Source: Loxodes magnus (lineage: Eukaryota; Ciliophora; Karyorelictea; Loxodida; Loxodidae). Taken from it: DNA of 64,000 nt. The notes under the pieces were generated by a model. It saw only the letters and a program-made list of their open reading frames with translations, was not told where the DNA came from and searched no databases. Location: positions 21,940-85,939 of the forward strand of contig CAMPDV010002180.1 of assembly GCA_946699065.1 (NCBI GenBank). The letters run 5' to 3'. Positions 1 through 64,000 of the stretch are shown piece by piece. A program made the translations under genes and the position numbers. Numbering within the stretch: position 1 is the stretch's first letter; each line of letters opens with the position of its first letter.

Positions 1-3000
1 TTAAAATTAAAGGTTGGCAAGTTTGAATAACTAGGTAAATTTATGGATCTTGACTGATATAAATTAGCTGAAAAATGAAGATAATGATTCTTAATTTTGA
101 TAAATAAAAAGTAGCATAAGCGAGAATAAAATAATGTCTTGTATAATTACTGGTAATTTACTTATAACTGATAGGTCTAATTTGGTAATATCTTAGTAGT
201 GCCTGTATATGTTGAATGTTAAAGTGATTTACTATTATATAGCATTTATATTGGTAATTTATAATTATAGCTTTAAATATCCTCCTAATTAAGTAAATTT
301 AATTATAAAGCCTTTATCTTTAATAACTTTGGTTTAAAACTGAATTTAGTTGGAGATTCAAATAAAGCTTTAAGCTTGTAATGACTTATTATATATATCT
401 AACTATTTTAATTAGTAGAAAGCTACTCTAATTTAAATAGAATGCTTTTTATAGCTCTTTTGCTTAGATATGGGAAGTGTTATTCTAGCAATAAAGTATT
501 AAATTAATGATTGTCCATACTTAAAGTAATAGATTATATATAAAGAAGATATTAAGATTAGTTTGATAATATAAGAGAAACGATTATTATTATTAAACTA
601 ATTTTAGTTAAAGAGAGTAGCTATAAGAGTATTTAAAGAGCATTAAAGTGATATAGAAATAATTATTATTAAATAATATAGCTTTATATAGTGGGAAGAT
701 AAGTAATTAATAACATTTCTAATGTAAACTTTAAAATAGTCAGTTAAACTTAGCTTAGTCAACTATAATATAAATAAAACAGACTAATTATTTTAATCAT
801 ATGGAACATAAGACACTATATTTTTATACAATATTTATTATAATGCTAAGTATAATTAAGATAACCAAGTGTGTTACAATCATATAATCATAGTGCTTAG
901 TAAATGCATTGCTTAAGATTATATCAAATTATTCATTTACATTTATTATCATAGCTATTAACATAGATTTACACTTAAGGATCATGCTAAATTCTTTTCA
1001 TTACCTAGATTTCTTAAGTTTAATCATTACTATTTTATAAGATCATTAGGATACAACCAAAACCAATACAGCCATTTAAAACTGATTAACTACTTTAAAA
1101 AGTTATACAAACCTTAGAAAATTAGTTAATATTATATGCCCTCAAATAATCCTATATTTTTCTGTTTGAACTTGCCAAACTTTCGGAATGATACTGTTAT
1201 TAATATAATTCAAAGGATTTAGGCAAATACATCATTTATGCTGCTTTTATTTAGTATACTACCGGGATCTAGGCTCCCTTATTTTAGAGAATTAACTGTT
1301 CTATCTGGCCTTTCATCTGTAGCCCAGCTTATTTTACCATCAATTTGTAAGTGAAAACTAATTTTGAAAGTTCAAATAATAATCTGAATTCCAGCTTGTT
1401 AACAGTCATTTATTGTATGTTTTTCAAATATAACGAAATTTTATCTTAAATATTAAGGAGTTAAGCATTAAATGTAGTTTCTTAGTCATCTATTTAGTCT
1501 CTGACCACGTTTCAACCCAATCCTTTGATAAGATGGTAAAAGTTTCATAGATAATAATAGACTTTTGGGCTATTTAGATGCCTTAGCAATATATAACTTG
1601 ATGTAAGTAGAAATCTAATATATCCCCTGCTAAGAGATACTCTTTCCACATTATATGATTCTATTTGGCTCAGTTATTCTTTATTATCGTTTATATCTAA
1701 AGAGTGTTCATGCTTACAATAGGTTTAGCAAGCTTTATCAAGTTTTTAAATATTATGTTAAACTCCATAAACACACATCTAAGCCCTTTCTTTTAGACTG
1801 CTAACTAAATACTTTTGATTAGTGTTTACAGTTGATTAAAGTGAATGTGTATAATCTTGAATTAGAATAGAAGTTTCTGATAGTGTTATGCTCTAATAGG
1901 AAAAGAGCATTAAATAGAAGTTAGTTGAATGTTAATAGTGTTTGAGATTATATATATGAGATACTATTATTAAATAATATAAGTTTAATTCCAACTACCT
2001 AATACTATATTTACTAATATACAGCTTATAACTAACCTACTAATAGATACTATATTTTATTGCTTTATATCACTTATCACCTAATCTACATTTATATACC
2101 AACTATCATTAAAGCTTAACTAATACTACAACATATTAATATTTCATAAGTTACGAACAAAATAGATCTATTTACAAGCTTAGCTTTTTGTCAAATTAGT
2201 TAATACTCTTTCATTAATCTCTTAACTTTTCTCGTTAGCTTGTTGTTTAACTTTGCTAGGCTTAGTGAGATTGTAAGTTTTGTTTAGTTTATTTAATTTA
2301 TATCAATATAATATCTTGCTTTGTATCTCTATTTTTTAATTTTAAGCCCCTTCAATCATATTTATATAATTTGAGTAGTTAGAAATTAATATTTAGCATA
2401 AACTGTTTAGAATCTATGCAGTTTATTGATTCTATTTATTATATTTCTTTTGTTTATTATCAAATCTCTTTCCGTGCCCTTTAATAGGGTATTTCATTTT
2501 TAGTTTCAACTTTCTAGATAGATTGACATTCTTTATTACTTAGCTGACTAGCTATACCATTTCATATGACAAATAAATTAGAGACTGATAAGTCAGAAAA
2601 GCACTAGTCGCTCTACCTAAACATAAAATAAAACTGATTAAGGAGTAAAATCTGAGCAATAAGTTAAAGGTTGTTAAATATATAAAATAAAGAAGTAATA
2701 AAAGAACATAGATAAATTAGATGATAAAAGTAGCACAATAGTAAAGTTAATTTAAAAGCTAAATAGAACTACTCTTTAGTTATTAAAATCAATCATTTCT
2801 TATTAAATCTAGTTCCTATTATTTACTTCCTTTACTAATATTTATTCTTATATATACTAATCAATTAACTCATTTAACCCATATTTTATTCTTTACCAAA
2901 CTTATAATTTAGATCCCCATTTTTAAATTTGCCCCTCTTTTTTCCTGCCAAATTAATATCAAAAATAATGTATAAAATGTTAATATCAAATATTATATTT

Positions 3001-6000
3001 ATATAAAGAGGTCTAGAAACAAGTAATAAAATGGCAAACTAGCTGTCATTAAATATATTTTTAAAATAATTATGATGTAGAAGTGTCTTTACATGTTTCT
3101 TATTCATATTCCTTTATTAGCTTATTCTATTTGGTTACTAATAAATATTATTTCCTACAAAATTAAATACTACTAGCTTACTTTTTTCAGTTTTATATTT
3201 ATTTTATATTTAAATTTACTAAAAATCTCTATACTATATTATTTACAGTAATATCAAAAGTTTTCATTTTTACCTCTCTCAACTTTTCTACTCTTGTATT
3301 CAATTTTATTCTAAATCTTTACAGTTAATGTGTTTATTTAATTTCCCTTTTTTTAAATAGAACTTCTTTTTCAAACTAATCTTTTTACTCAATTATTTCT
3401 ATTCTTATTCTGAGCAGTTTTTTATGAAAAATCTTGATTCTAAGGTCAGATTTCTTGAGTTACTGAATACTTGTAAAGTTCTCATTTAAATATTTTTGGT
3501 TATAGGTTAAGAGCTTTAGTAAATTATAATTGTTTAAGTCTTTAAATTCTTCAATTAACTCTTTCAAGATCTCACATGTTGGAATATGTTTAAAAGTATC
3601 AAGGTCTCCGCAAGAACATGTTTCAGAGCTTTAAATGTTATAATATCTTTACAGCAAATCATATTAGAAGTTATAGAAAAATGTTCTATGCTTATAAATC
3701 GATACAATTTCTCTTATCATATGTTTGTTAAGATTAAAGTAATTGTAGATTGGGAATTATGAGTGTTATTGTCAATTTCATTTACATATAAGCATGCTAT
3801 AGGCATTAAGTTCATTCTTATTATTGAATCTAAATAAAATTTTTGTCTTGTTTTATTTTAAACTAATCGTAGGAATTCTTTGCTTTCTTTAACATCCAAA
3901 TAATCAAATTAAAAATGCTAGGATAGTTTCTATAATTTCTTAAAATATTAAGATTACTGATTTTTTGTTTTATTATAGAGGTAAGCTATATCAGATTTAG
4001 GATTTGTTTCACTCTCTAATAGTATTTTGAGATAGAATTTAAAATATCTCATAGATATATAATATTCAAATGGAAGTCAATTCAAATCTATGAAGCAAAA
4101 TTCGTTAAAAGAGGATCTAGGACTCTTAAATGCATATCTTGATACTTTTCTCTGACTAATATTTATATCTTTTTTGATTTTCTTTATTCCTTTTAGAATA
4201 GCTCATGGTATTATTTCCGATCCATATTCAACTTTCGATAATATAAAAGATTGAAAGATTTATTTAAAATTTTATGGTGAAATATTTCTATATTTTGCAA
4301 GTTATAGCAAAGTTCCATTCACACACTTCCTATACTTTCGGCAAATATCATAAAAATGAATTTTGTAATTTATAATTCATTAAAATTAAATCCTAAATAT
4401 GTAGCATTTTTTTACTTTTTGATAATGTTATTATTCAAAGTAATATTAAAATTGTAATCATTCTATTTTTAATTCTTCTTAAGAAATCATATATATTCAC
4501 ATTTTTCTGTATTAATTGATAGTTTTACTCAACTAAACAATTTTCAAACAGCTTTTATTAAAGAATTCATATTATCTTCATTTTAAATCAATAGCAAATC
4601 TTCAGCCCATGTTTTAGTTACAAAATAACGGTTCAAAATTTTAAATATAAGTTATTTCTGATAATTTTCAAGGTATCTAATAACAATATCATAGAAAATT
4701 ATAGCAAATACTGGTTCATGTGAACTTCCTTATAATACACCATTGTTATATTATAGCATTCTTTATAAATTTTCATATAATAGAAATCTAACATCTAGAT
4801 CTTTATAAAATAATTTAATACTATTTATTAGTGCTAAAGGTATTTTAATTCTTCTTAAATGATCAAAAAATAGACATCTATCAATACTATCAAACATCTT
4901 TTCAACATCAATAAGAGTAGAGAGCAAATGTTTCTTCTTTCCTCATCTTCTATACAAATCATTAATTTATTATAAGGCTCATATTTAGTGCATAGTTTAT
5001 CTTTTCTTCAGAAATACTTAATGTGAAGGATGTATAATCTTTCATTCAATATATTCATATAACCTTTAAGTAAGCTTTTTATCGTATATTTTAAGGATGA
5101 AGTTTATAAGTGCAATAGGTCTCCAATTTATTCAATCAATTTTATCCCTTTTTGTAAATAGGAAGGATTATTATTTGCTTAAGTTAATTTGGATTATTTT
5201 GATTTCTTAGCATGTTATTTATAAATTTTAAAAGCACAAAATAAAAATCTTTATTAACATATTTAACGAGTTCTGCTTTAATGCCATCAGCTCCATTTTA
5301 TTTGCTATTTCCTAATTTCTCTATAATTGTTTAAATTTCATTTAAATGAAATAGATCGAACTCTTGTCTATATATAAGTACCTGCTCTTATACGAAATCA
5401 CAATTTCTATAAATATTATCAATTTTTTAATTACAATTTTTTATTTCTTCCTCATCAATGTCTTTGTGCTCATTAAAAACATTATTTTGCTAATTAATTA
5501 TTAAATTTGAAAACCCTTCAGAATCCAAATACATATTATTTCTCTTTCTTAGATTTAAAAACTTTTTTGTTTACTTAAAAATTTTAGTAGGAGATTCATT
5601 CATTTATATTCTATTTTTTTTACTTATTTTTACTTGTATTTCCAGTAATTATTTTTATATCTATTATATTTTTTATCTTTAATAAGCCAACTTCAAAACT
5701 ATCTAGTTTGCCCTTCCTTATTATTCTAAAGCTTGCTGGTAAGCTATTTGTGCTTATTTTGCAGCTTTAAACTCTTAATAATATTTATTGGAAGTCAACT
5801 AAAGTTATTATTCTATGGATCTGATCCTAAGATTTAATCTGCATTATTAATGAGTAAATGTCTTATAAAATAGTATTATTAATCTTAAAATTTATTCTAG
5901 GAGTAAGAATTGGTACGTTTCTATTAATATTTTAGATAAGTAAGTTAAACAGTATAGGAAAGTGATCTGCAACAAGTCAAGTGTTATGTAAAACTTAAAA

Positions 6001-7367
6001 TAGTGTAATCTAATCAATGTTGATATGATAATTGACTATAACATAATCGTTGCAATAAGTTTAAGGTTAACCCTACTTCTAAAAGTATCAAATCTTGTAT
6101 TATTTGCCTTTTATAAATCATATTCTTTAATAAAATTATTTAATCTTTAAGCGTTATTTTATTAATTTTATGAATTATTACTCCCATACTCTTAAAAAAA
6201 GCATTAAAGTCTCACAATAGCATAAGGGCTTAATCTCCTACTTCATTAAGGATAAGTTCTAAGTTTTAATATGATTAGTCTTTGATAGATAGAAGTTTTT
6301 CCTTTGTTGGCATGTAATATGTTGCAAAATAAATGTTATCAACTTTAATTACTAAGAAAGGACTATTTTAATCGCCAAAGTCAATTTCAATTTGTCTCGA
6401 ATCAAGTTCTTCTTTGACAATAAAGCAAACACCACTTGATCTTTAGGATTATTCACAATTTTTAAAATATGTTCTATATCCTTAAATTTATATTGGAATG
6501 AAGTCTTAATATTATCAAGTTTCATTAATTGAATAAATATATATTCCTTATTATCGAGTAAATTATTGAATACTTAATTATTTTGATTATATTTAATTCA
6601 TATTGCAAAGAGCTATTTTTAATTAATTTACTTCCGCTCCTCCTTTAAGTCCTGGGTCATAAATGCAAAGAACTTTTTTCTATAGTGAATTTAAATATGG
6701 AGTAATTTTGGACCTTAGATTATTGAATTTCTGTAGCAATTAATAATAAATAAAGTTAATGCATCATATTGCTATGTTAGTTTTTAATCTATTTTAATTG
6801 TTACTTAATTACTTTCAATTGTGGCCTAATTTAATTTATTAGATAATGTAATAAATATATTTTCAACTTAAGCAAAGAGATTTTGATTTTGTCATTTTTT
6901 CGTGCTTATAAATTAAATAAAGTTTTCACTTCTAAAGTTATTTCTTTTAATTATTTCTTCAACATCAACTTCAAATAATTGGTTATGTTACATAAATTTC
7001 AATTTACTTTTACTTAATTATGCATCTCACTAAATTCTTTAACCATTTATATTGATTCTACTGAATTTGAATCCATAATGAGATTTAATTATTTTTTGTT
7101 ACAAAATTTGAAATGTCTACACTGTAGCTTTTTTTTTTTTCATAAAATTCACTAAATTGAACCATCTAAGTAGCAGTGTCTTATTTTAAAGATTTTTATA
7201 TTAATTAAATCTTTGATTTTGCTTTGTCTTTCTATACCTATGATATCTCTGCATAAGCATCTAGTTTTAGTTCTCATTAATGTTCATAATATTTTACTAA
7301 TTAAATATGCTAAGTATTCAAAATATTATAAACTTCTTATAATTACTGATTATGCTGCTTCGCTTAC
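1..7367. repeat. Left copy of a >=7.4 kb direct segmental duplication
   Basis: This stretch matches 56519-64000 in the same orientation: base 1 pairs with 56519, and the right window edge pairs with about 7367. From 1 to about 3440 I counted only seven differences, six of them single-base indels (for example near 1541, 1712, 2064, 2226, 3226 and 3283) and one substitution near 2971, roughly 99.8% identity. From about 3448 onward substitutions become frequent, and a 97-bp block of the right copy is missing near 5890. The left copy may extend beyond the window. Bases 1-3100 hold no gene I can support: they are plain AT-rich DNA. Confidence 0.95.
3104..7076 (-). pseudogene. Non-LTR retrotransposon ORF2 (APE endonuclease + reverse transcriptase), left copy
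   Basis: Read on the minus strand with TAA/TAG as Gln. An N-terminal stretch (from an ATG at 7076) is followed by an APE-type endonuclease: a start resembling 'KIALCNMN' near 6610, 'NET' near 6520, 'YFATYYMPT' near 6310, 'DFNA' near 6205 and 'ADHFPI' near 5970. The reverse transcriptase follows: 'NGADGIKAE' near 5290, 'ILPIYKKG' near 5150, 'NWRPIALI' near 5120, the first catalytic-Asp region (FDSIDR) near 4890, 'GVLQGSS' near 4730 and 'WAEDLLL' at 4598-4609, where YADD is usual. A Cys/His motif (CSCG...HIPTC) lies near 3610, and a basic tail stays open to a TGA at 3104. Broken by TGA in GDFNA (6212-6214), a frameshift before the RT 'NWRP' block and the 97-bp deletion. Such elements copy themselves by target-primed reverse transcription. 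Sure of the family; clade not assigned. Confidence 0.85.
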
Positions 7368-18414: not shown

Positions 18415-18439
18415 TAACGCACTCGCCTCATACACTCTT

Positions 18440-25460: not shown

Positions 25461-28400
25461 GTAGACTGACGCTAAAGAGTATCAAGCATCTTACGATTAT
25501 TGATGCTCTTTAAATTGGGAATTAGAAAATTACATTTTTAATATTTTGCACATAGATAAAAAGTATAGTAAATAGCTATTGAGAACTGGTACTATATCCA
25601 TAATACTTAAATGGCTTTATCATTATAACTAATAGGAAAGAATGATAATAACTAGTATTTTAGTTTAAGATTATTAAAGATGAAAAATTCTTAGTAATTT
25701 CACTCTTATTGAAATAATACCAATCTCTTGCATTTAAAGAATAGACAATTTCTTTTATTTCTTAGCATAAAAATAATAGGTACTATTTGAGTTTTAGTAA
25801 GCTAATACTGTATTAATGTTGGTTCTCTTGCTTTTTGATATAATAAGCATATAGCTATAGTTAGTTATGCTAAAGTTTGATATGATTATATAGAGTATTT
25901 TGATAGTAAGATAAGCAGTGTAACTTATATTTGCTTAGATTTAAGTTCTTAGGTAAAAATAAGCTTAAATGATAGTATAATAAACCCTATGCAAGATTCT
26001 TAAAGTAAGTATGCTAAATGAGAGCATTAATTTACTTGTTGCTCTGTAATCATACACATAATTCATATTGTTGGTCTTATAAAGAGAGTAATAGAAAGAA
26101 AAATCAGCTTAGAGTTAAATATATTTCTCAACAGTAGAATGGCTTTGATTTTGATCATATGAGTAGCTTGTAAGAGTTATATTGTTCTTTAGAAGGGCTA
26201 GAGAAGTAAGATTCATAAGCTGTAGTATTTTTAAGTTTTAAATTACTTTCTTCTTTAGAAATTGGATTCAAAACTCGAAATCTCTCAGCTTTTTAGATTT
26301 TATAGCAAAAAACAGAAATAAATCTAAGAGGCTAGGTTGACTTAGAAAAACTAGGATTTTACTGGATTGAGAAAGGAGTAAAAGCAGTACTTTATAAAAA
26401 TAAAGATAAGAACAGAGGAGTAAGGATTTTAGATTTATAAAAGGAGCTCAGTAAATTTAGGCGGTATTAGTGTAATATACAAATTTAAACTCTGAAATAA
26501 TAAATCCTCTAATAACTAAAATACCTTAAATTAAAAATTATAATACTAAAGTTTAAAAATCTTAGTATTAATAAAGACTTTAAATAAGTAAGAAAGTATC
26601 TAACTATCAAAAGATACTAATTATATCTTAGTTTAATAGTAATGCTTAAAAAGTAAATTAAAGATATTTATTTAATTAATTTAGTTATTAATAAAGATAA
26701 GACTTTTAGTCAATATCTATTATTCAAATCATTATGCCTAAACATAAAAAACTATTAACATTTCAAATTCACAATACAATTCAAGTCTTACCCAAATGGA
26801 GGATAAGTTAAGTCTGCTGACTTATTTTTTAATCAAACTTCTTAAATTACTTAGTTTTAAAATAGACTCTCAAACAAAAATAATTCATTACTGTAGCTAG
26901 ATTCTTTTAAGCAAACAACGCTTCTAAAAAATGCAACAGCTAGAAGGAAAAAACCATGTTTAAAAAATATTAATTTAAGAAGAAGAGAAAAAATGAAAAA
27001 TTCTAACTCTTTCATAAAATTAATTAACTGAAGGTTATTAATTGAAGGTTAAAGAAATAGAAAAGAAGGAAAGAAATTACTAAAGTTAATAAAATTATAG
27101 AGGAATCAGGTATTAATGAAAGTTGATTCAAGATTTAATAATTTTGCTACACAAGCATATCATTACAATTAAGTTATAATACAGCCAAAAGGAACAAATA
27201 AAAAAGATCAAAAAGAATCTTAAAGAAATAACGAATCTAATTATTCAAAGCCTAATTTTGTTTTTAGATAATAAAATTAATTTAATAAAAGTGACAGAAA
27301 CCTAAACCGGAAGAGAAAAAGTCTTATATTATTTCAATGTAGAAAAGATGAGCAAACTATAAGAAAGACTAAATGATAAATCTTATTATCAAACGAAATA
27401 AAAAAATAAACTAAGAATAAGAGTAGAGGGCTAAATATTTTTAGAAGAGAAACTGGTATGAAAGTAAAAATCTAAAATTTGATTATTATTTTAGTAAGTA
27501 AGCACACCAAATTTAAGTGACTCATAGTTAATTAAAAATGAATTTGGTAAAAAGAGACTGAAATCTAATAAAATTGTAGAAGATACTAATTTGCTTAAAA
27601 AAAAGCTAGTCAAGTCCAGAAAATTTTACTTAAGAAGTTTTATTAACTTAAAAACCAAATTTTTAACTGATGTTAGAAGGAAAATGAAGTCAAGATAGCA
27701 ATATACTTAATCTATAATAAAATTAATCATATAGTTAAATCTCATACCTAGTTGAGGAAACAATAGTAACAAAATGATACTGTAGAAAGATTAAGAAGGA
27801 AGTAGAAAAAGCTTAAGCTTGCAATCTTCATAACTCTAAATAAACTAAGTTGTTCATGAGCTTAAATAAATTGAAATTAAAGTCTAGAACTTGTGTAAAG
27901 AACATCAGCTTTAATTATCTATCATATGTACTTGAGATAATTAACTTGCATGTAATACTTGCCTAATATCAACTCACAATCATTAAAATATACTTATATA
28001 GGAAAAAATTAGGGTCCTATAGGAGTAAAATAAAAAAGCAGTTATTATTAAATTAAACTATGCATTTATAAGATAAAATAGCTATTTTTAGTAAAGCTTA
28101 ATAACAGATAAACTAATCAAAGCTTGCTACTAGAAATACCATACTAGAAGCAAGTGAGCTAATAATTTCCTAGGTTATTCATATTTGCTAATAGTACTTT
28201 AATTAAATTTTAAGCTAATTAGATAGATCAAAAGATAAGATTAATTCTAACTTATCGAAAGTACATAATTAATAGTAGCAAATAAAATGACTATGTCTAA
28301 CTCGAAGAGATTATTATAGATAAATGTGAGTAATAAGCAGGAAATAGATAGTTTATAGCACAGTTACTTAACTAGAAACTAAATTAGCAGGATTTAAATA

Positions 28401-28690
28401 TTTAAGATTAAGTAGGTTAATATATCTATTATAATGGTTTATAAAAGATATATGGATGCAAGTTATTCAAGAATAAAAAGAAAAAATAGATAACTAAAGA
28501 AAAAACATAGAGGACTAACTATCAAATCTAAATATAATATTAACTGACTAAGATCAATAATTATTAAAATAAAAAGAGTAAAGAGAAAATTAAAAATAGC
28601 AAATAGAATATAATAGATAAAATAGAATAACCTATTAATTAATAAGCTAATTTATTTTAAGAACACAATAAACAACTTTTAAAAGAATAA
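25461..28690. other. AT-rich region, no supported gene
   Basis: Many chance-length open frames on both strands and no motif, splice signal or recognised paralogue. Probably further decayed element sequence. Confidence 0.4.
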
Positions 28691-28845
28691 TTTTAAACTA
28701 AAAGTAACTTTGATACTTTATCTTTTTTAAATTATTAAATATATATAAACAATAAACTGAAAGCTAATTAAGTTATAAGGAAGCAATTTCCTTTGAATAG
28801 CTACTTCTTTAAATATTTTCTTAAGCTAATCACTTGTGCTACTTA

Positions 28846-29580
28846 TCAACTTTTAAATTTGTCTTCAGTTTGGTTTCTTAAATATAAAATTAGTCTTCCA
28901 CCAAGTTCGAGATCTCGTATCTTCATTCTCAGTTACTCCATTTTTAATTCACTTTTTCTTTTTTAAAATTTAGCTTACATTTTCCTTAAAACTTAATCTC
29001 TTTTGGATCTTGTTTCTTCTTTTCGCATTCTCTACCTTTCTTAATCTAGATTCTGGGTATACTTATTAAGCATCTTTATATACTTCTTTCTTTAAGAAAC
29101 ATAGCAGATTCTAGTATTTATGTATAGCTTAATATTAAACCTTGTTACAAAGCTCCTTAAACTCTTAGGTATCACCAGCTTAAATTACGTTCTTATATTA
29201 TTATTTTCCTATTTAAATTGCCAAAATATTGTAAAGAAGTATTTTAAGAATCCAATAGTACTTTTGGTGCTAAATATCCTGAGGAATAGTTTTTCTATAG
29301 TAGGAAGAATTGGTTATTCTAACCTATTCTAATTTGGTTACATATTCTACTTTCAATAGTTTATGTATCGCCTGCAATTTAGCTTGCAAGTCTGAGACAA
29401 AAGTAGTCAAACGTCTTTAAATATTGGTTCTGTTAATCTTTTCTTATACTGAAACAGTTCTTTAAATAAGCACATTTATTCAATTACCTAGACTAAATCT
29501 TATTACTACCTCTTAAATAATCTGACTCAATCGCTAGTTAGAATTATCTTATATATTAAAGTATTTCTGAAATAAATAAT
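28846..29580 (-). CDS. Conserved unknown basic protein of the repeat family, copy A
   Basis: Minus-strand frame ending at TGA 28846, with TAR=Gln. From N to C: 'RLFKRQQQDLVQVIEQM', 'EPIFKDV', then 'LFLRIFSTKSTIGFLKYFF' and a highly charged C-terminus (QERQRMRKEETRSKRDQ, then KRKSELKMEQLRMKIRDLE) that looks like a coiled coil. The copy at 44.6-45.3 kb has the same protein with synonymous swaps such as TAA/TAG and CAA/TAA at glutamines. Three internal TGAs (near 29535, 29412 and 29352); the last two are also present in copy B. Function unknown. Plus-strand frames over the same bases (for example 29120-29332) are shadows. Confidence 0.55.
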
Positions 29581-30485
29581 CTCTCTTATCATTAAACTAG
29601 CTAATAATGGATTTTGTTATTTCTCTTTTATTAGATTTAATTTACTATTACTACGATTTCTTTCTTATAGGATTATTCTTTTATATTACCCTCCAAATTT
29701 TTCTGCTTCTAGTACTTCAATTGCTTATATTTATCTACCCTATCCATTTCCTATTCCTATAATTAAGGATTACCCACACATTTTCTACTTATAGATCATT
29801 AGCATTCAGACTCTCTTGATTTTATTTCCTTCCCTTTTAATCTCTTTTCTTTTTATTGTCTCTCATTTAAAATGAATATGATTAATTAATAATTTTAGCT
29901 TAATTAAGAAGAAATCTTAGTATCTAGTTATACAAGCTAGTTAGATAGAAAGGGAAGATATTAATATAGTAACAAAAGACAAGCTATTATAAAAAATTAG
30001 GTATGAATGATACTAAAGCTGTAGCATATAAAATGCTAACTATAGTAAGATTTAAGTAACTTACTATTTTACAAGTTTAAAGGTAAAAGATAAAATAGAT
30101 AGGGATTTAAAGCTTTCTAGTTATTAAGAGAAGAACTTTAGACTAATCAAGTAATAGAGATATATCATTAAGCATGCTTCTATAAAAGAGTAATATTGAA
30201 TCCCCTATATTTCTAGTTTAGCTAATAGGGTAATATAAGTATCAAGCTAAGAGCTGTATTATTGAAGAACTAACTATCTAAATGATAAGCATCTTAAGTA
30301 TTAACATGACATTATCAAAGTTAGAATAATTTAAGCAACTAAAATAAAGAATGCTAAAAAATCAAAAGATATCTATATTAATTTAATACATTCACCAAGC
30401 TATTAGGTCTATTACTTTTTGTTTTAAAAGAACTTAAGTTTCCTTGTGATGTTAAAGACCTTTCGATAGATATCTAGTCAATTAT

Positions 30486-40120: not shown

Positions 40121-40589
40121 AGACATTTAAAGGCATTAAATTTATAAATAAAGCAGATTATATTACTTGTAGATAAAAAGGAGACTCTAACAGTAATATA
40201 TCATATAACTACATCACATTTCACAGTTAAAGTTTTAGTTTAAGTAATTTAGATAAGACTAATAATACTAATTAGCTTAAGAGAATTAAAGATAATAGAA
40301 GTATAGTATCTAATATATAAGTAGTAACTAATTATTGCTAGTAAAGACAAGTTAATAGTTATTATATAATCCTTTATTAAAACTAGTGTTTTGAGCATAT
40401 ATGAGTGATTGAAAATAATAATGGTAATTATTTAAAAAGGATTAGTGTTATTAAATTTGATTGGTTGAAATAGTAGTAATAAATTGGGTAACTCATTACA
40501 CTATAGATAATTATAAAAAGGATAATTAATTTAAAGATATAAAACATTCAAAATATTTATTAGATATCATCCGTGTGGGAATTTTAATA

Positions 40590-40890
40590 GACGAGAACCA
40601 TGCTGAGAAGTATGGTAGGTCATTCAAGTTTCTGCCCTATCAGCTTTCGATTGTAGTGTATTGGACTACCATGGCAGTGACGTATAACGGAGAATTAGAG
40701 TTCAATTCTGGAGAGAAAGTCTGAGAGACGGCTACCACATCACAACATCAAGGAAGGCAGTAGGCACACAAATTACCCAATCCTGACTGAGAGAGATAGT
40801 GATAAGAAATAACGACAACTGGCTTCGTCTCGGTGATTGGAATGATCACAACGTAAAAGCGTTAGAGAGCCCACTGGAGAGTAAGTCCTC
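40590..40890 (+). pseudogene. 18S rRNA gene fragment, diverged
   Basis: About 300 bases of near-balanced composition match the 5' domain of eukaryotic 18S rRNA: TCATTCAAGTTTCTGCCCTA at 40620, then the strongly conserved TATTGGACTACCATGGCAGT at 40658, AACGGAGAATTAG, ACGGCTACCACATC, AATTACCCAATCCTGACT and AGTGATAAGAAATAAC. Many substitutions hit positions that are invariant in working genes (for example GACGTATAACGG for CACGGGTAACGG, GAGAGACGG for GAGAAACGG). It stops just before the 530-loop sequence (GCCAGCAGCCGCGG is absent). A transposed rDNA remnant, not a working gene. Confidence 0.9.
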
Positions 40891-40899
40891 CGATTTTGT

Positions 40900-42050
40900 T
40901 CTAGAGGTCTCTAAAAATATAGTATACATGAATTAAGGTTGGCTTTGACCGAAATCCCATCATAAATTAAAAAATAGCTCACATAATGATTAAGGAAAAA
41001 AGCTGAAATGAGTCTAGATTATGAAATAAAATAGTTAGCTTGAATATGAAATGTAATGAGTTGCTTATTTGGATGATTTGCTGCTAAAACGTCTAATTTG
41101 GGGCAGAAACGGTTAATATAGCAACAATTGAAAAAGTGCTCATGATAAGCAGATAAAGTGATTTGCTTGTGATAGTTAAAATTTTAAGAATAATGTTGTC
41201 AAAGATATTATCTTTCGATTGATTTGATACCTTGTACTAAATAGGTCTAAAAAATTATCATCTTAAAGACTAAATTTTTGCTTCCGTACTTAAATAATTA
41301 ATTTATTAGTAGCAGTTATATCCTGTATGTTTAATCGCTTAAAACTTTGTCTTATTTAATTCTAAGGAGTAAATCTAAAATGTGTTAGGTTAATTTAAGA
41401 TTAATAGTAGATAACTAGGATTAGATAAAAGCAGTAATTAATAGATTGAACTAATTCTTAAACCACTGAGGAAAGATTGCTCTTCAAATTAAAAAACAAT
41501 TATAAAATAGGTAAAGCAGAATAGCTAAATCAAATATAACTATTAGAACACATTTAAATGCTTATTCAAAGTCAAATAATATACTACTTACTATAGTTCA
41601 ATGATATATTAAGACAAATATTAAAAGATAATATTGATTTTTCTTTTTTACTTAACTCCAATGTAAAGAACTAACTGCTTACAAATATGGTTTCATCTGA
41701 GTATGTTACTAAATTTTTTATCTACATATATAACTCCTCTGATCTAGAATTATTAGATAGTACCACTCTAATTGCTTTAAATCGCTTTTCTTTCATTTCG
41801 TAGACAATTTGTATTCTTCTTTCCACTTATATTTAATAAGCTTATATCTCATTCGCAAATATTCTTATCATTCTTCATAAAACTTTCTTAAATAAGGTAA
41901 TTAGCATATAAAATAGCTTCTCTTATGAATCGTAATGGTATAGTTTTATTTAAGTAATGTTAAGACATAAAATGATTTGAAATATTAAATATCCTAAGTT
42001 TATAATAAATAGTATAAAGAATTACTAATAAACATACAATCTAATTATCC
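40900..42050. other. AT-rich region, no supported gene
   Basis: Ordinary AT-rich DNA after the rRNA fragment; no motif or repeat recognised. Confidence 0.4.
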
Positions 42051-42769: not shown

Positions 42770-44470
42770 AGAAGAAACATAATTATTGAATCTTTGTCTT
42801 ATTTTCCTTCCGTAAGGTTTTTATTTTTTCCAATATTAGCTCAAATTAATGATTGTGATTAGTTATTAAGCAGGTTTTATATATAAGTTAATTATCTTTA
42901 GATCATATTAATTACAATACTATTTGATGCTCTTAACACAAGTTATAAATTTTAGTTTTAATAGTTTTTAGTTAATGTACAAGTTTAGTTTATTTTAACT
43001 TAACATCAAGACAGAATATAACATTATTCCTCTTATGCATTGCATTTAAACATCACTACCTATACATTACCACTTAGACAATTAATCTCATTAAACCCAT
43101 CATCACATATCACACAAATGCTTGCATTTTAAACATTTTTAATCACCAAATTAATTATAAGAAAATAAATAGCTTTAATTATATCCTTATAATATAGATA
43201 ATCCATAGACAAGCAATTTATTAAGAGTTTAAATATTATTAAAGAGAATGCTTAATTAAATAATATTTATTACTCTATCATAACGTATTCTATATGCTTT
43301 TTGTGGATAACTTTAATCTTTTATGATAGTTTTGTTAATATTCAATTAATTTAAAATTCAATTCACAAATTACAAATTAATATCTTACAGAGAAAGCTAC
43401 TGGCGTTATCTCTGCCAAAAAGGTATTTTTAGTTTTAGTTCTTATTTCTCATTGAACAATTTCCCTTTTAGATTTCATGCCTTTTATCTAACTAATTTAA
43501 TTCCAGAGGTTCAATATTTTACTATTTATCTATTTCTTAAATTTATCTTTATCATTCAAATACTCTTTTCTTTTACTCACCTAGCCTTTTTTTTCTTATT
43601 TTGTTATTAAAAATTAGCTTACTGAAATGAGATTTTAACACCCTAGATAGCCTTGTTAAACTTAAGTATCTTTTAATGTAGTAATTAACTAACCAAGATC
43701 GCATAGTTAGAAGATCCTTCAATTTGCATATTTTCTATCTTTTATTCCATTTCTGAAAGTAATCTTCTATTTTCATTGATATAATTAGCATTCTTATTAC
43801 ACCTTCTAATTACTAGATATCCAGCAAAAAAATTCTTAGAATAAAATCTATTTAATAAATACTATAAAAGGCCTATTTTAGCTTTCTTTAGTATTTGATT
43901 TTAATTAAATTTTAGGAATTTATTCAATAATTGAACGTAAAAGTTTAAAAAATAAAACAGTATTTTATAATATATAAATACCGCCCAAATTTGTTTGGCT
44001 CTATTTAAAGGTTAAAATCTTTATTTATCCGCCTTTTTCTTGATTTCTCAAGTTTGTTTTGCTTCATATGTTATAATCCTTTAAAGTACATCAAGATCTT
44101 TCTACTATCTAATCTAATCGACATTATTTAAAACTTGAACTATTAGCTCTAAAATATCTTTCAACCCCAGTTTTTGAGTTTATCATCTGAATTTTATTGA
44201 AATTAAGTTTTATTTTTTTAATTATCTCCCTTCTAAATATAGATCTGTAAATTTTTCATTAGCATTTAAGATCCCTCCCATGTCTTGCATGTTTATTGAA
44301 GCAAGCAGCTTAAATTTATCTTCCTGCATTAAATTTTGAAAGTACTATTATAATTATCGATGTTTTTCTTAATATTAATAATAGAATCATTTTTCTACTG
44401 AGAAATTGCTTACCCACCAAATTTACTATTTCTTCAATTACTCATTTTACAGCGTCAAAAAGAGCAATTT
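42770..44470. other. AT-rich region, no supported gene
   Basis: No motif, RNA gene or array seen. T-rich on the plus strand at 43.4-44.4 kb. Confidence 0.4.
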
Positions 44471-44599
44471 TAAGCTAAAAGTATCATTGATACTTGATGC
44501 TTTTTTATTCATTAGTATATATAAAAAATGAACTGAAACCTAATTAAGTTAAGGAATGTTTTCCTTTGAATAGCTGCTTCTCTAAATATCTTTTTTAAC

Positions 44600-45340
44600 T
44601 TTTAACTTTTGCTATTTATCAGCTTTTAACTTTAGTCTTCAGGTTGGTTTCTTAATTATAAATTTACATCCAATAAGTTTAAGATCTCGTAAATTTCTCA
44701 TCATTCCATTTTTACTTCGCTTTTTTTAGATTTATCTTATATTTCCCTTAAAACTTAATCTCTTTTGAATCTTGACTCTCAATCTTGATATTCTTTACCT
44801 TTCTTAATCTAGATTCTTGTTATACTTATTAAGCCTCTTTATATACTTCTTCTTTAAGAAACATAGCAGATTCTAGTATTTATGTATGGATTAATGTTAA
44901 ACCTTGTTACAAAACTACTTAGACTCTTAGATATCACCAGCTTAAATTACGTTCTTATATTATATTTTTCCTATTTAGATTACCGAAATATTGTAAAGAA
45001 GTATTTTAAGAATCCAATAGTACTTTTGGTGCTAAATATCCTGAGGAATAGTTTTTCTAAAGTAGGAAAAACTGGCTATTCTAACGTATTCTAATTTGAC
45101 TACATATTCTACTTTCAATAGTTGATGTATCGCTTGCAATTTAGATTGCAAGTCTAAACAAAAGTAGTCAAACGTCTTTAAATATTGGTTCTGTTAATCT
45201 TTTCTTATACTGAAGTGTTCTTTGAGCAAACATATTTATCAATTACCTAGACTAAATCTTATTAGAACCTCTTAAATAATCTGTCATAATAACTAGTTAG
45301 AGATATCTTAGATATTAAAGTATTTCTAAAATAAATAATA
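44600..45340 (-). pseudogene. Conserved unknown basic protein of the repeat family, copy B
   Basis: Same protein as at 28846-29580, kept best in 'LFLRIFSTKSTIGFLKYFF' and 'IRTQFKLVI'. The C-terminus is damaged: two successive TGAs follow 'SEVKME', and there is a frameshift near 45.26 kb. Glutamine codons differ silently from copy A (GAA-TAG for GAA-TAA, CGG-TAA for TGG-CAA). Plus-strand frame 44882-45094 is the shadow of this gene. Confidence 0.5.
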
Positions 45341-45844
45341 TCTCTTATGAATAATTAAACTTATAATGTATTTTGCTACTTCTCTTTTATTAGATTTAGA
45401 TTTACTATTACTTAGCTTTCTTCTTTATTGGATCTATATTTTATTTTACCCTCCAAATATTTTTTGTTCTAATACTTGAATTGCTTATAATTATCTACCT
45501 TATGTATGTTAAATTTCTATATTTAAGGATAATTAAAGTATTTTCTACTTATTGGATATTAACAGTCTAATCCTCATTATTTATTTTCCTTTTCATTTAA
45601 TCCTTTTTTAATTTCCTTCATTTAAAAACAATATAATTAATTTATAATTTTAGCTTAATTAAGAAGACAAATCTAAGTATTTAGTTTAGTAAGATAGTTA
45701 GATATAAAAGGGTAACCATAAGAATAATAAAGAAAAGTGATTATAATAAAATATACTATCAATGATACTTTACTGTAGCATATCAAATGCTAAGCAGTTT
45801 ATATCTTTAGTTTATATTTTATAGAAATGAAGCTACCCAATATT

Positions 45845-55423: not shown

Positions 55424-56518
55424 TTATTTCAAGTTAAAAGTATCTAAATCAAAGTTAATTATCTTACCTTCTAAGAAAACAACCATTTTGGTCTTTTTGA
55501 AGAATAACTACTTTATATGTTTAAAGCACAGTTGAGTTTATATAGTTAGAGTAAGCTGTAGTGGGTAAATAAGCAAATATAGAATATTTCTGATTAAAGT
55601 ACTTTGTAATAAATTATTTGGTAATGATAGGCATCTTAAATTTGAGGATTATACTTTCTTAAATAAACTTAATGCTTTGATAGTAAGAGTGAGTTATTAA
55701 ATTACTTAGTTATTCGCCCATCTGAAACTAAAAGTTACAGATTAAAAAATTTTAACTACCTTTGTTATAACTTGACATACAAGCTAAATGAAACTCTAAT
55801 AGTTTTTATTGAAATGTTGGATCTAAATTACTACTTCTAACTCTAAGTTATTAAGATATGATTCATAATGAAATGTATCTAAAGCAAATTAAAATAATAA
55901 TTATAAAGAAATATTATTTAAATTAGAAGAATTTGCTTAATTTTCTATATGCTAGTATTTAGTTGCTTAGTAAGATATCTTTATTTTCTTCTTTATTTAC
56001 CAATGTTTTTTCTTTCTGCTGAACTTAGTTCTTTGTTGGAAGGATTTATTCAAATGTATTTAAACTGATATTTTTCAGCGTTATTTGTATAATAATTAGA
56101 ATTTTTTAATGATCAAGTTAATTTTTCCTTCTCTAAATAAATATAGTTCAGTTTAAGATGGCAACATGGTAAATTCAGTTATTACGTTGTTTAAGGTTTT
56201 ATTTTATGTGTTTCTTTTAAAATGTTTAAGCTTTTTAAGAAATTCTCTTATTTGCTTGGAAAAATAAGAATTAACAGTTCAATTTAGTTTAGAATGATTT
56301 AATTGTTTCAGCTCTTCTTCAATGCTTCTTGAATTATGGTTGAAGTTTGATTTGGCTATTAAATATTAGGAATTTTGAAGACTGAAGTCTTAAATTTAGA
56401 GATGAGATTCTTATTTGGATGCTAATAAAAGTATTATTGAAATTAAATGAAATATCGTTCACCTAATGGCTTCTTAATTTATTAAATAGTTTCATTCTTT
56501 TAATTTATGTAATTCCTT
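55424..56518. other. AT-rich spacer before the right duplication copy
   Basis: No gene or array. The boundary with the duplicated segment is at 56518/56519 within TTTTAAAATTAAAGG; no target-site duplication can be judged because the left copy starts at the window edge. Confidence 0.5.
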
Positions 56519-59500
56519 TTAAAATTAAAGGTTGGCAAGTTTGAATAACTAGGTAAATTTATGGATCTTGACTGATATAAATTAGCTGAAAAATGAAGAT
56601 AATGATTCTTAATTTTGATAAATAAAAAGTAGCATAAGCGAGAATAAAATAATGTCTTGTATAATTACTGGTAATTTACTTATAACTGATAGGTCTAATT
56701 TGGTAATATCTTAGTAGTGCCTGTATATGTTGAATGTTAAAGTGATTTACTATTATATAGCATTTATATTGGTAATTTATAATTATAGCTTTAAATATCC
56801 TCCTAATTAAGTAAATTTAATTATAAAGCCTTTATCTTTAATAACTTTGGTTTAAAACTGAATTTAGTTGGAGATTCAAATAAAGCTTTAAGCTTGTAAT
56901 GACTTATTATATATATCTAACTATTTTAATTAGTAGAAAGCTACTCTAATTTAAATAGAATGCTTTTTATAGCTCTTTTGCTTAGATATGGGAAGTGTTA
57001 TTCTAGCAATAAAGTATTAAATTAATGATTGTCCATACTTAAAGTAATAGATTATATATAAAGAAGATATTAAGATTAGTTTGATAATATAAGAGAAACG
57101 ATTATTATTATTAAACTAATTTTAGTTAAAGAGAGTAGCTATAAGAGTATTTAAAGAGCATTAAAGTGATATAGAAATAATTATTATTAAATAATATAGC
57201 TTTATATAGTGGGAAGATAAGTAATTAATAACATTTCTAATGTAAACTTTAAAATAGTCAGTTAAACTTAGCTTAGTCAACTATAATATAAATAAAACAG
57301 ACTAATTATTTTAATCATATGGAACATAAGACACTATATTTTTATACAATATTTATTATAATGCTAAGTATAATTAAGATAACCAAGTGTGTTACAATCA
57401 TATAATCATAGTGCTTAGTAAATGCATTGCTTAAGATTATATCAAATTATTCATTTACATTTATTATCATAGCTATTAACATAGATTTACACTTAAGGAT
57501 CATGCTAAATTCTTTTCATTACCTAGATTTCTTAAGTTTAATCATTACTATTTTATAAGATCATTAGGATACAACCAAAACCAATACAGCCATTTAAAAC
57601 TGATTAACTACTTTAAAAAGTTATACAAACCTTAGAAAATTAGTTAATATTATATGCCCTCAAATAATCCTATATTTTTCTGTTTGAACTTGCCAAACTT
57701 TCGGAATGATACTGTTATTAATATAATTCAAAGGATTTAGGCAAATACATCATTTATGCTGCTTTTATTTAGTATACTACCGGGATCTAGGCTCCCTTAT
57801 TTTAGAGAATTAACTGTTCTATCTGGCCTTTCATCTGTAGCCCAGCTTATTTTACCATCAATTTGTAAGTGAAAACTAATTTTGAAAGTTCAAATAATAA
57901 TCTGAATTCCAGCTTGTTAACAGTCATTTATTGTATGTTTTTCAAATATAACGAAATTTTATCTTAAATATTAAGGAGTTAAGCATTAAATGTAGTTTCT
58001 TAGTCATCTATTTAGTCTCTGACCACGTTTCAACCCAATCCTTTGATAAGATGGTAAAAAGTTTCATAGATAATAATAGACTTTTGGGCTATTTAGATGC
58101 CTTAGCAATATATAACTTGATGTAAGTAGAAATCTAATATATCCCCTGCTAAGAGATACTCTTTCCACATTATATGATTCTATTTGGCTCAGTTATTCTT
58201 TATTATCGTTTATATCTAAAGAGTGTTCATGCTTTACAATAGGTTTAGCAAGCTTTATCAAGTTTTTAAATATTATGTTAAACTCCATAAACACACATCT
58301 AAGCCCTTTCTTTTAGACTGCTAACTAAATACTTTTGATTAGTGTTTACAGTTGATTAAAGTGAATGTGTATAATCTTGAATTAGAATAGAAGTTTCTGA
58401 TAGTGTTATGCTCTAATAGGAAAAGAGCATTAAATAGAAGTTAGTTGAATGTTAATAGTGTTTGAGATTATATATATGAGATACTATTATTAAATAATAT
58501 AAGTTTAATTCCAACTACCTAATACTATATTTACTAATATACAGCTTATAACTAACCTACTAATAGATACTATATTTTATTGCTTTTATATCACTTATCA
58601 CCTAATCTACATTTATATACCAACTATCATTAAAGCTTAACTAATACTACAACATATTAATATTTCATAAGTTACGAACAAAATAGATCTATTTACAAGC
58701 TTAGCTTTTTGTCAAATTAGTTAATACTCTTTCATTAATCTCTTAACATTTTCTCGTTAGCTTGTTGTTTAACTTTGCTAGGCTTAGTGAGATTGTAAGT
58801 TTTGTTTAGTTTATTTAATTTATATCAATATAATATCTTGCTTTGTATCTCTATTTTTTAATTTTAAGCCCCTTCAATCATATTTATATAATTTGAGTAG
58901 TTAGAAATTAATATTTAGCATAAACTGTTTAGAATCTATGCAGTTTATTGATTCTATTTATTATATTTCTTTTGTTTATTATCAAATCTCTTTCCGTGCC
59001 CTTTAATAGGGTATTTCATTTTTAGTTTCAACTTTCTAGATAGATTGACATTCTTTATTACTTAGCTGACTAGCTATACCATTTCATATGACAAATAAAT
59101 TAGAGACTGATAAGTCAGAAAAGCACTAGTCGCTCTACCTAAACATAAAATAAAACTGATTAAGGAGTAAAATCTGAGCAATAAGTTAAAGGTTGTTAAA
59201 TATATAAAATAAAGAAGTAATAAAAGAACATAGATAAATTAGATGATAAAAGTAGCACAATAGTAAAGTTAATTTAAAAGCTAAATAGAACTACTCTTTA
59301 GTTATTAAAATCAATCATTTCTTATTAAATCTAGTTCCTATTATTTACTTCCTTTACTAATATTTATTCTTATATATACTAATCAATTAACTCATTTAAC
59401 CCATATTTTATTCTTTACCAAACTTATAATTTAGATCCCCATTTTTAAATTTGCCCCTCTTTTTTCCTGCCAAATTAATATCAAAAATAATCTATAAAAT

Positions 59501-62500
59501 GTTAATATCAAATATTATATTTATATAAAGAGGTCTAGAAACAAGTAATAAAATGGCAAACTAGCTGTCATTAAATATATTTTTAAAATAATTATGATGT
59601 AGAAGTGTCTTTACATGTTTCTTATTCATATTCCTTTATTAGCTTATTCTATTTGGTTACTAATAAATATTATTTCCTACAAAATTAAATACTACTAGCT
59701 TACTTTTTTCAGTTTTATATTTATTTTATATTTAAATTTACTAAAAAATCTCTATACTATATTATTTACAGTAATATCAAAAGTTTTCATTTTTACCTCT
59801 CTCACTTTTCTACTCTTGTATTCAATTTTATTCTAAATCTTTACAGTTAATGTGTTTATTTAATTTCCCTTTTTTTAAATAGAACTTCTTTTTCAAACTA
59901 ATCTTTTTACTCAATTATTTCTATTCTTATTCTGAGCAGTTTTTTATGAAAAATCTTGATTCTAAGGTCAATTTTCTTGAGCTACTGAATACTTGTAAAG
60001 TTCTCATTTAAATATTTTTGGTTATAGGTTAAGAGCTTTAGTAAATCATAATTTTTTAAGTCTTTAAATTCTTCAATTAACTCTTTCAAGATCTCACATG
60101 TTAGAATATGTTTAAAAATATCAAGGTCTCAGCAAGAACATGTTTCAGAGCTTTAAATGTTATAATATATTTACAGCAAATCATATTAGAAGTTATAGAA
60201 AAATGTTCTATGCTTATAAATCGATACAATTTCTCTTACCATATGTTTGTTAAGATTAAAGTAATTGTAGATTGGAATTATGAGGTGTTATTGTCAATTT
60301 CATCTACATATAAGTATGCTATAGGCATTAAGTTCATTCTTATTATTGAATCTAAATAAAATGTTTGTCTTATTTTATTTTAAACTAATCGTAGGAATTC
60401 TTTGCTTTCTTTAACATCCAAATAATCAATTTAAAAATGCTAGGATAGTTTCTATAATTTCTTAAAATATTAAGATTACTGATTTTTTGTTTTATTATAG
60501 AGGTAAGTTATATCAGATTTAGGATTTGTTTCACTTTCAATAGTATTTTGAGATAGAATTTAAAATATCTCATAGATATATAATATTCAAATGGAAGTTA
60601 ATTCAAATCTATGAAGCAAAATTCGTTTAAAGGAGGAATAGGACTCTTAAATGCATATCTTGATACTTTTCTCTGACTAATATTTATATCTTTTTGATTT
60701 TCTTCATTCCTTTTAGAATAGCTCATGGTATTATTTCTGATCCATATTCAACTTTCGATAATATAAAAGATTGAAAGATTTATTTAAAATTTTATGGTGA
60801 AATATTTCTATATTTTGCAAGTTATAGCAAAGTTCCATTCACACACTTCCTATACTTTCGGCAAATATCATAAAAATGAATTTTGTAATTTTAAAGGGCA
60901 TTAAAATTAAATCCTAAATATGTAACATTTTTAACTTTTGATAATGTTATTATTCAAAGTAATATTAAAATTGTAATCATTCTATTTTTAATTCTTCTTA
61001 AGAAAACATATATATTCACATTTTTCTATATTAATTGATAGTTTTACTCAACTAAACAATTTTCAAACAGCTTTTATTAAAGAATTCATATTATCTTCAT
61101 TTTAAATCAATAACAAATCTTTAGCCCATGCTTTAGTTACAAAATAACGGTTCAAAATTTTAAATATAAGTTATTTCTGATAATTTTCAAGGTATCAAGG
61201 TATCTAATAACAATATGCTAGAAAATTTATAGCAAATACTGGTTCATGTGAACTTCCTTATAATACACCATTGTTATATTATAGCATTCTTTATAAATTT
61301 TCCATATAATAGAAATCTAACATCTAGATCTTTATAAAATGATTTAGTACTATTTATTAGTGCTAAAGGTATTTTAATTCTTCTTAAATTATCAAAAAAT
61401 AGACATCTATCAAAACTATCAAACATCTTTTCAATATCAATAAGATTAGAGAGCAAATGTTTCTTCTTTCCTGATCTTCTATACAAATCATTACTTGATT
61501 ATAAGGTTTATATTTAGTGCATAGTTTATCTTTTCTTCAGAAATCCCTAATGTGAAGGATATATAATCTTTCATTATTCAATATATTCATATAACCTTTA
61601 AGTAAGCTTTTTATCATATATTTTAAGGATGACCTTTATAAGTGAAATAGGTCTCCAATTTCTTCAATCGCTTTTTGATCCTTTTTTGTAAATAGGAAGG
61701 ATTATTATTTGCTTAAGTTAATTTGGATTATTTTGATTTCTTAGCATGTTATTTATAAATTTTAAAAGCACAAAATAAAAATCTTTATTAACATATTTAA
61801 CGAGTTCTGCTTTAATGCCATCAGCTCCATTTTATTTGCTATTTCCTAATTTCTCTATAATTGTTTAAATTTCATTTAAATGAAATAGATCGAACTCTTG
61901 TCTATATATAGGTACCTACTCTTATACGAAATCACAAATTTCTATAAATATTATCAATTTTTTAATTACACTTTTTTATTTCTTCCTCATCAATGTCTTT
62001 GTGCTCATTAAAAACATTATTTTGCTAATTAATTATGAAATTTGAAAACCCTTCAGAATCCAAATACATATTATTTCTCTTTCTTGTATTCAAAAACTTT
62101 TTTGCTTACCTAAAAATTTTAGTAGGAGATTCATTCATTTATATTCTATTTTTGTTGGCTTATTTTTACTTGTATTTCCAGTAATTACTTTTATATCTAT
62201 TATATTTTTTATCTTTAATAAGCCAACTTTAAAACTATCTAGTTTACCCTTCCTTATTATTCTAAAGCTTGCTGGTAAGCTATTTGTGCTTATTTTGCAG
62301 CTTTAAACTCTTAATAATATTTATTGGATGTCAACTAAAGTTATTATTCTATGGATCTGATCCTAAGATTTAATCTGCATTATTAATGAGTAAATGTCTT
62401 ATAAAATAGTATTATTAATCTAGATTATTTTAATCAATTGTATCAAAATTAATCAAGCATCATTCAAATAAGACTTTATATTCAGATCTAATTTCTAAAT

Positions 62501-64000
62501 TTTAAAGTTTATTAATCTTAAAATTTATTCTAGGAGTGAGAATTGGTACGTTTCTATTAATATTTTAGATAAGTAAGTTAAACAGTATAGGAAAGTGATC
62601 TGCAACAAGTCAAGTGTTATGTAAAACTTAAAATAGTGTAATCTAATCAATGTTGATATGATAATTGACTATAACATAATCGTTGCAATAAGTTTAAGGT
62701 TAACCCTACTTCTAAAAGTATCAAATCTTGTATTATTAGCTATTTATAAATCATATTCTTTAATAAAATTATTTAATCTTTAAGCGTTATTTTATGAATT
62801 TTATGAATTATTACTCCCATACTCTTAAAAAAGAGCATTAAAGTCTCCCAATAGCATAAGGGCTTAATCTCCTACTAAATTAAGGATAAGTTCTAAGTTT
62901 TAATATGATTAGCCTTTGATAGATAGAAGTTTTTCCTTTGTTGGCATGTAATATGTTGCAAAATAAATGTTATCAACTTTAATTACTAAGAAATGACTAT
63001 TTTAATCGCCAAAGTCAATTTCAATTTGTCTCGAATCAAGTTCTTTTTTGACAATAAAGCAAACACCACCTGATCTTTAGGATTATTCACAATTTTTAAA
63101 ATATGTTCTATATCCTTAAATTTATATTGGAATGAAGTCTTAATATTATCAAGTTTCATTAATTGAATAAATATATATTCCTTATTATCGAGTAAATTAT
63201 TGAATACTTAATTATTTTGATTATATTTAATTCATATTGCAAAGAGCTATTTTTAATTAATTTGCTTCCGCTCCTCCTTTAAGTCCTGGGTCGTAAAAGT
63301 AAAGAACTTTTTAATTATTGCGAATTTAAATGTGGAGTAATTTTGGACCTTAGATTATTGAATTTCTGTAGCAATTAATAATAAATAAAGTTAATGCATC
63401 ATATTGCTATGTTAGTTTTTAATCTATTTTAATTGTTACTTAATTACGTTCAATTGTGGCCTAATTTAATTTATTAGATAATGTAATAAATCTATTTTCA
63501 ACTTAAGCAAAGAGATTTTGATTTTGTCATTTTTTCGTGCTTATAAATTAAATAAAGTTTTCACTTCTAAAGTTATTTCTTTTAATTATTTCTTCAACAT
63601 CAACTTCAAATAATTGGTTATGTTACATAAATTTCAATTTACTTTTACTTAATTATGCATCTCACTAAATTCTTTAACCATTTATATTGATTCTACTAAA
63701 TTGAATCCATAATGAGATTTAATTATTTTTTGCTACAAAATTTGAAATGTCTACACTGTAGCTTTGTTTTTTTTCATAAAGTTCACTAAATTGAACCATC
63801 TAAGTAGCAGTGTCTTATTTTAAAGATTTTTATATTAATTAAATCTTTTATTTTGCTTTGTCTTTCTATACCTATGATATCTCTGCATAAGCATCTAGTT
63901 TTAGTTCTCATTAATGTTCATAATATTTTTACTAATTAAATATGCTAAGTATTCAAAATATTATAAACTTCTTATAATTACTGATTATGCTGCTTCGCTT
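56519..64000. repeat. Right copy of the >=7.4 kb direct duplication
   Basis: Same order and strand as 1-7367, cut by the window end. Near-identical to the left copy up to about 59965, more diverged after that. It keeps a 97-bp block (62421-62517) that the left copy lacks. 56519-59600 holds no supported gene. Confidence 0.95.
59626..63710 (-). pseudogene. Non-LTR retrotransposon ORF2 (APE endonuclease + reverse transcriptase), right copy
   Basis: The same protein as the left copy but with a longer intact middle. The endonuclease box 'LMLLGDFNAL' is intact (62846-62848 encode the Gly that is TGA on the left), then 'ADHFPI' near 62.60 kb. From there the frame is continuous through the linker to the RT boxes 'ILPIYKKG'-like, 'RNWRPISLI', 'HQGFLKKRQTMHQIQTL', 'LIDIEKMFDSFDRCLFFDN' and on to 'DVRFLLYGKF' near 61.31 kb, about 430 codons with five TGAs and no frameshift. 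An extra C near 61.30 kb then shifts the frame. The catalytic box reads WAKD (61117-61128) instead of YADD, so the RT is dead. In the C-terminal Cys/His motif a Gly codon is TGA. A frame change before 'ADHFPI' is shared with the left copy. Confidence 0.85.

Follow-up and report, generated by a model that had tools for sequence, protein, structure and literature searches.

Karyorelict ciliates use genetic code table 27, in which UAA and UAG encode glutamine and UGA encodes tryptophan when it lies sufficiently far upstream of the poly-A tail and is otherwise a stop, according to the accessible text of PMC11441545. The same text gives the Loxodes magnus MAC assembly as 706 Mbp and reports about 2,700 RVT_1 copies, about 1,200 Exo_endo_phos_2 copies and two LINE-like families. 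Here we analysed a window of 64,000 nucleotides from this species (contig CAMPDV010002180.1, here C2180, positions 21940-85939), and searched its genome over 705,730,643 bases in 7,843 contigs. Judged by its sequence, the feature under study appears to be an APE-type non-LTR retrotransposon, present as a duplicated and dead copy with in-frame TGA codons. Very probably this element used the karyorelict code of Loxodes magnus, with UAA and UAG read as glutamine, internal UGA as tryptophan, and UGA close to the mRNA 3′ end as stop. Because the host reads TGA as tryptophan within its genes and uses it as the stop where they end, most in-frame TGAs of the retrotransposon would be tryptophan codons, and a minority would be damage acquired after the element died. 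The code behind this finding is already known (table 27); mobile DNA and host genes together confirm its ambiguity here.

The duplicated element of the window

The right copy of the element (family W) occupies 59711..64000 on the minus strand, its 5′ part being cut by the contig end at 64000. Its 3′ end was placed near 59711, relatives of 88-93% identity losing their match at about 59704-59725. The left copy (3189..7365, minus strand) is 98% identical to the right copy; its 3′ end at 3189 was set by equivalence with 59711, and 7365 is the edge of the matching segment. Both copies lie in a duplicated segment of about 98% identity (55424..64000, corresponding to -1094..7365) that reaches about 4.3 kb beyond the element 3′ end near 59.71 kb, and they represent a single duplication of about 8.5 kb and no independent insertions. 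Contig C1761 opens (1-3101) with the same 3,101 bases as the right copy (window 61-64 kb, 100% identity), and the contig end within the right copy, together with this contig start, probably marks a repeat in which the assembly was interrupted. Further duplicated blocks on the contig are found at 28681-30039 and 44458-45793 (83% identical) and at -9939..-7096 and 26809-29645 (96.6% identical). The window also contains a eukaryotic SSU rRNA fragment (40380-40910, plus strand; 133 bits, model positions 28-600 of 1831) and a long low-complexity tandem repeat (17534-18415) whose frames are Phe/Ser/Leu or Lys/Glu-rich runs. On the minus strand, a 469-aa open frame (19681-21090), Gln-rich and coiled-coil-like, includes 67 codons that are TAA or TAG and is probably a host gene; its one domain match was a weak one to SlyX, below the cut-off.

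In the right copy, the main part of the APE-type endonuclease was recognised at 62725..63330 (Pfam PF14529, 28.6 bits), with weak matches to L1 endonuclease and exonuclease III type structures (best E-value 3e-6). The C-terminal part of the endonuclease (62330..62715), which includes TGA-LVADHFPI, lies in another frame, and the frameshift preceding it is common to both window copies. The reverse transcriptase (RT) follows as an N-terminal part at 61310..61945, located by tblastn and by eye, and a later part with the thumb at 60945..61295, all of these features being on the minus strand. The frames of the endonuclease C-terminal part and of the later RT part were likewise assigned by eye. The RT of the right copy is 30.5% identical to that of family A (tblastn, E-value 2e-10). 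An APE-type endonuclease and an RT are combined in the window element, where the former was found by Pfam and the latter by similarity to family A, and also in the family A locus L042, where PF14529 (43.8 bits) and PF00078 (125 bits) lie in one frame.

Between 59.72 and 63.34 kb, nine frame-changing indels are private to the right copy, and five are common to both window copies, unlike nearly all covering relatives; two of the shared five cancel out within 12 nt. The initial annotation had stated that true lesions differ between the copies, which is correct for the private indels and incorrect for the shared ones. It had also described about 430 codons of the right copy as free of frameshifts, and this was an overestimate, the longest such stretches in the interval being about 210 codons.

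The left copy and nine relatives (L032-L040) were aligned to the right copy, with coding segments assigned by eye and with L041 and the 96-100% identical copies L002-L030 set aside. The TGAs first noticed after NET (63149..63151 in the right copy, 6515..6517 in the left) and in the thumb (61063..61065 and 61048..61050 in the right copy, 4544-4546 and 4529-4531 in the left) are present on the minus strand with the neighbours described. The codon after NET is TGA in ten of the ten other copies; its proposed equivalence to the tryptophan of an ETW motif was not upheld, the residue being His or Lys in the solved homologues shown and Gln or His in two other families (by eye). Tryptophan had likewise been proposed at both thumb TGAs and before LVADHFPI. 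The second thumb TGA (S-TGA-VKLSIN) is TGA in 9/9 readable copies, with TGG or TGA three alignment columns away in families A, C and D; the first (AV-TGA-KLF) is TGC in six and TGA in three of nine readable copies. The TGA before LVADHFPI (62610..62612, minus strand) recurs in nine of the ten other copies, the remaining one having TTA. Two more minus-strand TGAs, at 61664..61666 (SD-TGA-RNWRP) and at 61571..61573 in the RT, are each kept in 9/9 readable copies; the column of the former is TGA in family I too and Pro in families A, C and D. The TGA at 62460..62462 (FE-TGA-CL, minus strand) is probably a lesion, with GGG in five, GAG in one and TGA in two of eight readable copies.

The presence of the same TGAs in both window copies had been used as evidence for a sense codon, an argument that loses its force in one duplication of about 98% identity. 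Across the ten other family W copies, 66 of 81 readable cells keep TGA at the ten in-frame sites of the right copy, as do 286 of 350 at 39 off-frame TGA sites in these stretches, without a difference between the two classes, and TGG occurs at none of the in-frame positions. TGA conservation among family W copies is silent on the meaning of TGA; because in-frame and off-frame TGAs are equally conserved, the window copies are poor evidence for UGA as tryptophan. UGA might instead be a stop only, and the in-frame TGAs might be decay, for example of TGG to TGA, fixed before amplification. The window copies are in keeping with such decay: they are full of frameshifts, in-frame TGA is not enriched in their family, and some single TGAs, opposite TGC, GGG or CGA in other copies, do look like decay.

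Tubulin genes and tRNA-Trp of the host

A genome search for tubulins gave 258 candidates, of which the best 150 were scored, and in-frame TGA was counted by eye in 116 of these 150. The beta-tubulin L062 (contig C629) was aligned to PDB tubulins over 419 residues (best E-value 2e-276). All three of its in-frame TGAs, entered as X, stand opposite Trp in one PDB alignment shown, and its TAA and TAG codons stand opposite Gln (by eye). Such TGAs at tryptophan positions, in an unbroken host frame, argue against a UGA that is only a stop. Two diverged tubulins are less clean, with 3/5 (L063) and 1/3 (L064) of their TGAs on tubulin Trp positions (by eye). The alpha-tubulins L059 and L060 use TGG internally and have their first TGA at codon 455, a comparison of two loci from which L061 was left out for giving no alpha-tubulin start. 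Because the TGAs of L062 are opposite Trp and the first TGA of L059 and L060 is at codon 455, this single genome uses TGA both as tryptophan and as stop. The reassignment of UGA that the initial annotation had suspected in host genes is thus observed in tubulin. The two alpha-tubulins belong to a region of about 315 kb (C64:618992-934095) in which 21 tubulin matches were counted by eye on both strands.

A tRNA-Trp(UCA) had been suggested as a possible mark of reassignment. Three tRNA-Trp(CCA) genes were found in the genome with a strict tRNA-Trp pattern, and a looser pattern gave 128 places, of which about 100 were listed, all of them CCA and none a tRNA-Trp(UCA). The anticodon stem is of 5 bp in the tRNA-Trp(CCA) genes L066 and L067. 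In L068, which belongs to a tandem array on C148, a T stands opposite C atop the anticodon stem in the ARAGORN drawing, leaving a 4-bp stem. In the accessible texts of PMC12153298 and PMC13092985, tRNA-Trp(CCA) with a 4-bp stem is tied to UGA reading in Blastocrithidia and Condylostoma, and the latter text, citing an eLife critique, gives such a stem for Loxodes too; the finding is already in print. L068 is like the tRNAs of these two organisms in its CCA anticodon and unpaired stem top, and the sole addition here is the tandem arrays, which are not Trp-specific. These arrays lie at C148:155451-209573 and C67:482310-486656, with units of about 241 and 187 bases. A special role of tRNA-Trp amplification in gene dosage was rejected, the 649 matches of a Lys-tRNA-like control pattern being clustered too.

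TGA columns across retroelement families

The best 150 of 3,403 first-look candidates from a genome search for RTs were scored, and each of the 150 carries three to nine in-frame TGAs; one further genome search scored the best 40 of 1027 candidates. Among the fetched loci we recognised the retroelement families A (L042, L056, C614 and others), C (L044), D (C321), I (L050) and W (the window), with RT identities to family A of 70% for C, 44% for D, 27% for I and about 29-30% for W. The inter-family codon table was compiled without the row of the left window copy (WL), and cells beyond residue 898 of the L042 endonuclease-RT piece were omitted, L042 being seemingly out of frame there.

Families A and D, which are 42% identical, both have TGA at 9 of 1226 columns, from 19 and 22 TGAs respectively (hypergeometric P = 2.5e-12), and TGA is paired with TGG at four further columns. 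At 19 of the 32 TGA-bearing columns the partner has another residue, including six Phe and one Tyr and no Arg or Gly. Families A and C have five common TGA columns and five TGA/TGG pairs among 700 columns (P = 3.1e-8), and the remaining five TGA columns include one Arg. The TGG pairs speak for tryptophan at such columns, and the A-D partners with another residue speak against it. Families of 42-65% identity have TGA columns in common, and between families TGA is observed to exchange with TGG and with aromatic codons. In a BLOSUM62 vote at the TGA columns, whose pairs are not independent, Trp scored 42, Tyr 15 and Phe -2, with the rest lower.

These comparisons bear on two alternatives. Decay under a stop-only UGA is hard to reconcile with TGA in all of the best-scored RTs and with identical TGA columns in diverged families, and with the host beta-tubulin we regard it as very improbable; an explanation by TGG-to-TGA changes fixed prior to amplification is unnecessary, though some single TGAs resemble decay. 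UGA could also be translated, partly as a residue other than tryptophan such as Cys, to which the TGC at one thumb position in six of nine relatives would correspond. Cys is far under Trp in the BLOSUM62 vote and the tubulin TGAs fall at Trp columns, and we regard such a partial assignment as extremely improbable. UGA as tryptophan inside coding sequence, with UAA and UAG as glutamine, as the initial annotation had proposed in naming a karyorelict-type code, holds from host tubulin and from the inter-family exchange of TGA and TGG, though several of the arguments first given for it fail. The weight in inferring the code belongs to host genes and inter-family exchanges, and none of it to sharing among recent duplicates.

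Within families A and C, L042 was compared with 12 loci. Changed in-frame TGA cells were TGG in 7 of 24 and TTA in 10 of 24, and changed off-frame TGA cells were TGG in 4 of 50 (Fisher's exact test: p = 0.03, the cells not being independent); this excess of TGG may lend weak support to UGA as tryptophan. Two comparisons speak against tryptophan. In a Pfam RVT_1 residue scan of the L042 TGAs, Trp reached 129.3 bits and ranked 17th of 20, the best residue being Ile (132.7 bits); at the four clearly aligned TGA columns the residues of human L1 are Val, Lys, Ile and Leu, and none is Trp. The TGA columns appear to be tryptophan positions of the Loxodes families and not of RTs generally. Head-to-tail arrays of RT-bearing units were also seen, at C5131:5395-26349 and C20:2028-7877, with a spacing of 2,532 or 2,504 bases.

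Element architecture and comparison with known systems

In family A, frame 2 of L056 holds the endonuclease start as well as the later ORF1-like part, and frame 3 of C614 holds both the ORF1 end and the endonuclease. In family D, ORF1 and the linker share one frame in L065, as do the linker and the endonuclease in C321 (by eye). All four copies have frameshifts elsewhere. A CCHC motif was recognised by eye in the ORF1-like part, which gave no match in a Pfam search. A common frame for the ORF1-like, endonuclease and RT parts in these two families is only suggestive, because chance agreement per family is about one in three; such a frame would fit a code without internal stops. In the ORF1 linker, differences were too few for codon-position counts, and the third position showed no clear excess.

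The distance from the last TGA to the element 3′ end is 71-83 nt in three family A copies and 62 nt in a family C copy. The hairpin that follows is similar in families A and C (-16.1 and -15.5 kcal/mol for the 3′ UTRs of L042 and L044), and an Rfam search of L042 and L044 gave no match. Before the last TGA, the same four copies are free of TGA for 74-92 codons and of TAA for 25-67 codons; the lack of TGA is in line with the published depletion of UGA and UAA immediately before the stop, and by a hand estimate it is not significant. The flanks of L042 and L044 directly beyond the element 3′ ends resemble each other around an ATG (AAATAAAATG..TCTAAGAAATAA-like), which may reflect a common insertion preference.

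If UGA stops translation only near the mRNA 3′ end, an internal stop would not work, and retrotransposons might be confined to a single fused ORF1-endonuclease-RT polyprotein, with a TGA next to the conserved 3′ hairpin, about 60-85 nt before the 3′ end, as its sole stop. We put this forward tentatively, as a possibility that falls somewhat short of probable. If true, the ambiguity of the code would shape mobile-element architecture, and the question arises whether a positional stop rule forbids two-ORF retroelements on one mRNA. It is also conceivable that one UGA in the linker joining the ORF1-like part to the endonuclease is a partial stop, yielding a short ORF1 product besides the fused protein. 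L042 has three linker TGAs in a charged, low-complexity stretch and an ATG directly before its endonuclease, and UGA has two meanings in the table 27 code; however, these linker TGAs are thousands of bases from the 3′ end, and the UGA stops described in the accessible text of PMC11441545 are near the poly-A tail. We consider a partial stop unlikely.

The closest described system is the karyorelict code (table 27) of Loxodes magnus itself, for which the accessible text of PMC11441545 gives the same assignments of UAA and UAG to Gln, internal UGA to Trp and terminal UGA to stop, together with thousands of RT and endonuclease domains, as here. That text, in its accessible part, has nothing on retroelement UGA columns, ORF1 or stop position. 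Our literature search, to which subscription journals contributed little, found no paper on retroelement TGA columns or ORF1 under the karyorelict code.

The elements described here have the same APE-type endonuclease and RT as the LINE-1 ORF2 protein and other APE-type non-LTR elements, recognised by sequence. The residues of LINE-1 at the TGA columns are not Trp, unlike those of the Loxodes families. L1 has a separate ORF1, whereas the ORF1-like, endonuclease and RT parts apparently form one frame in two of the families found here.
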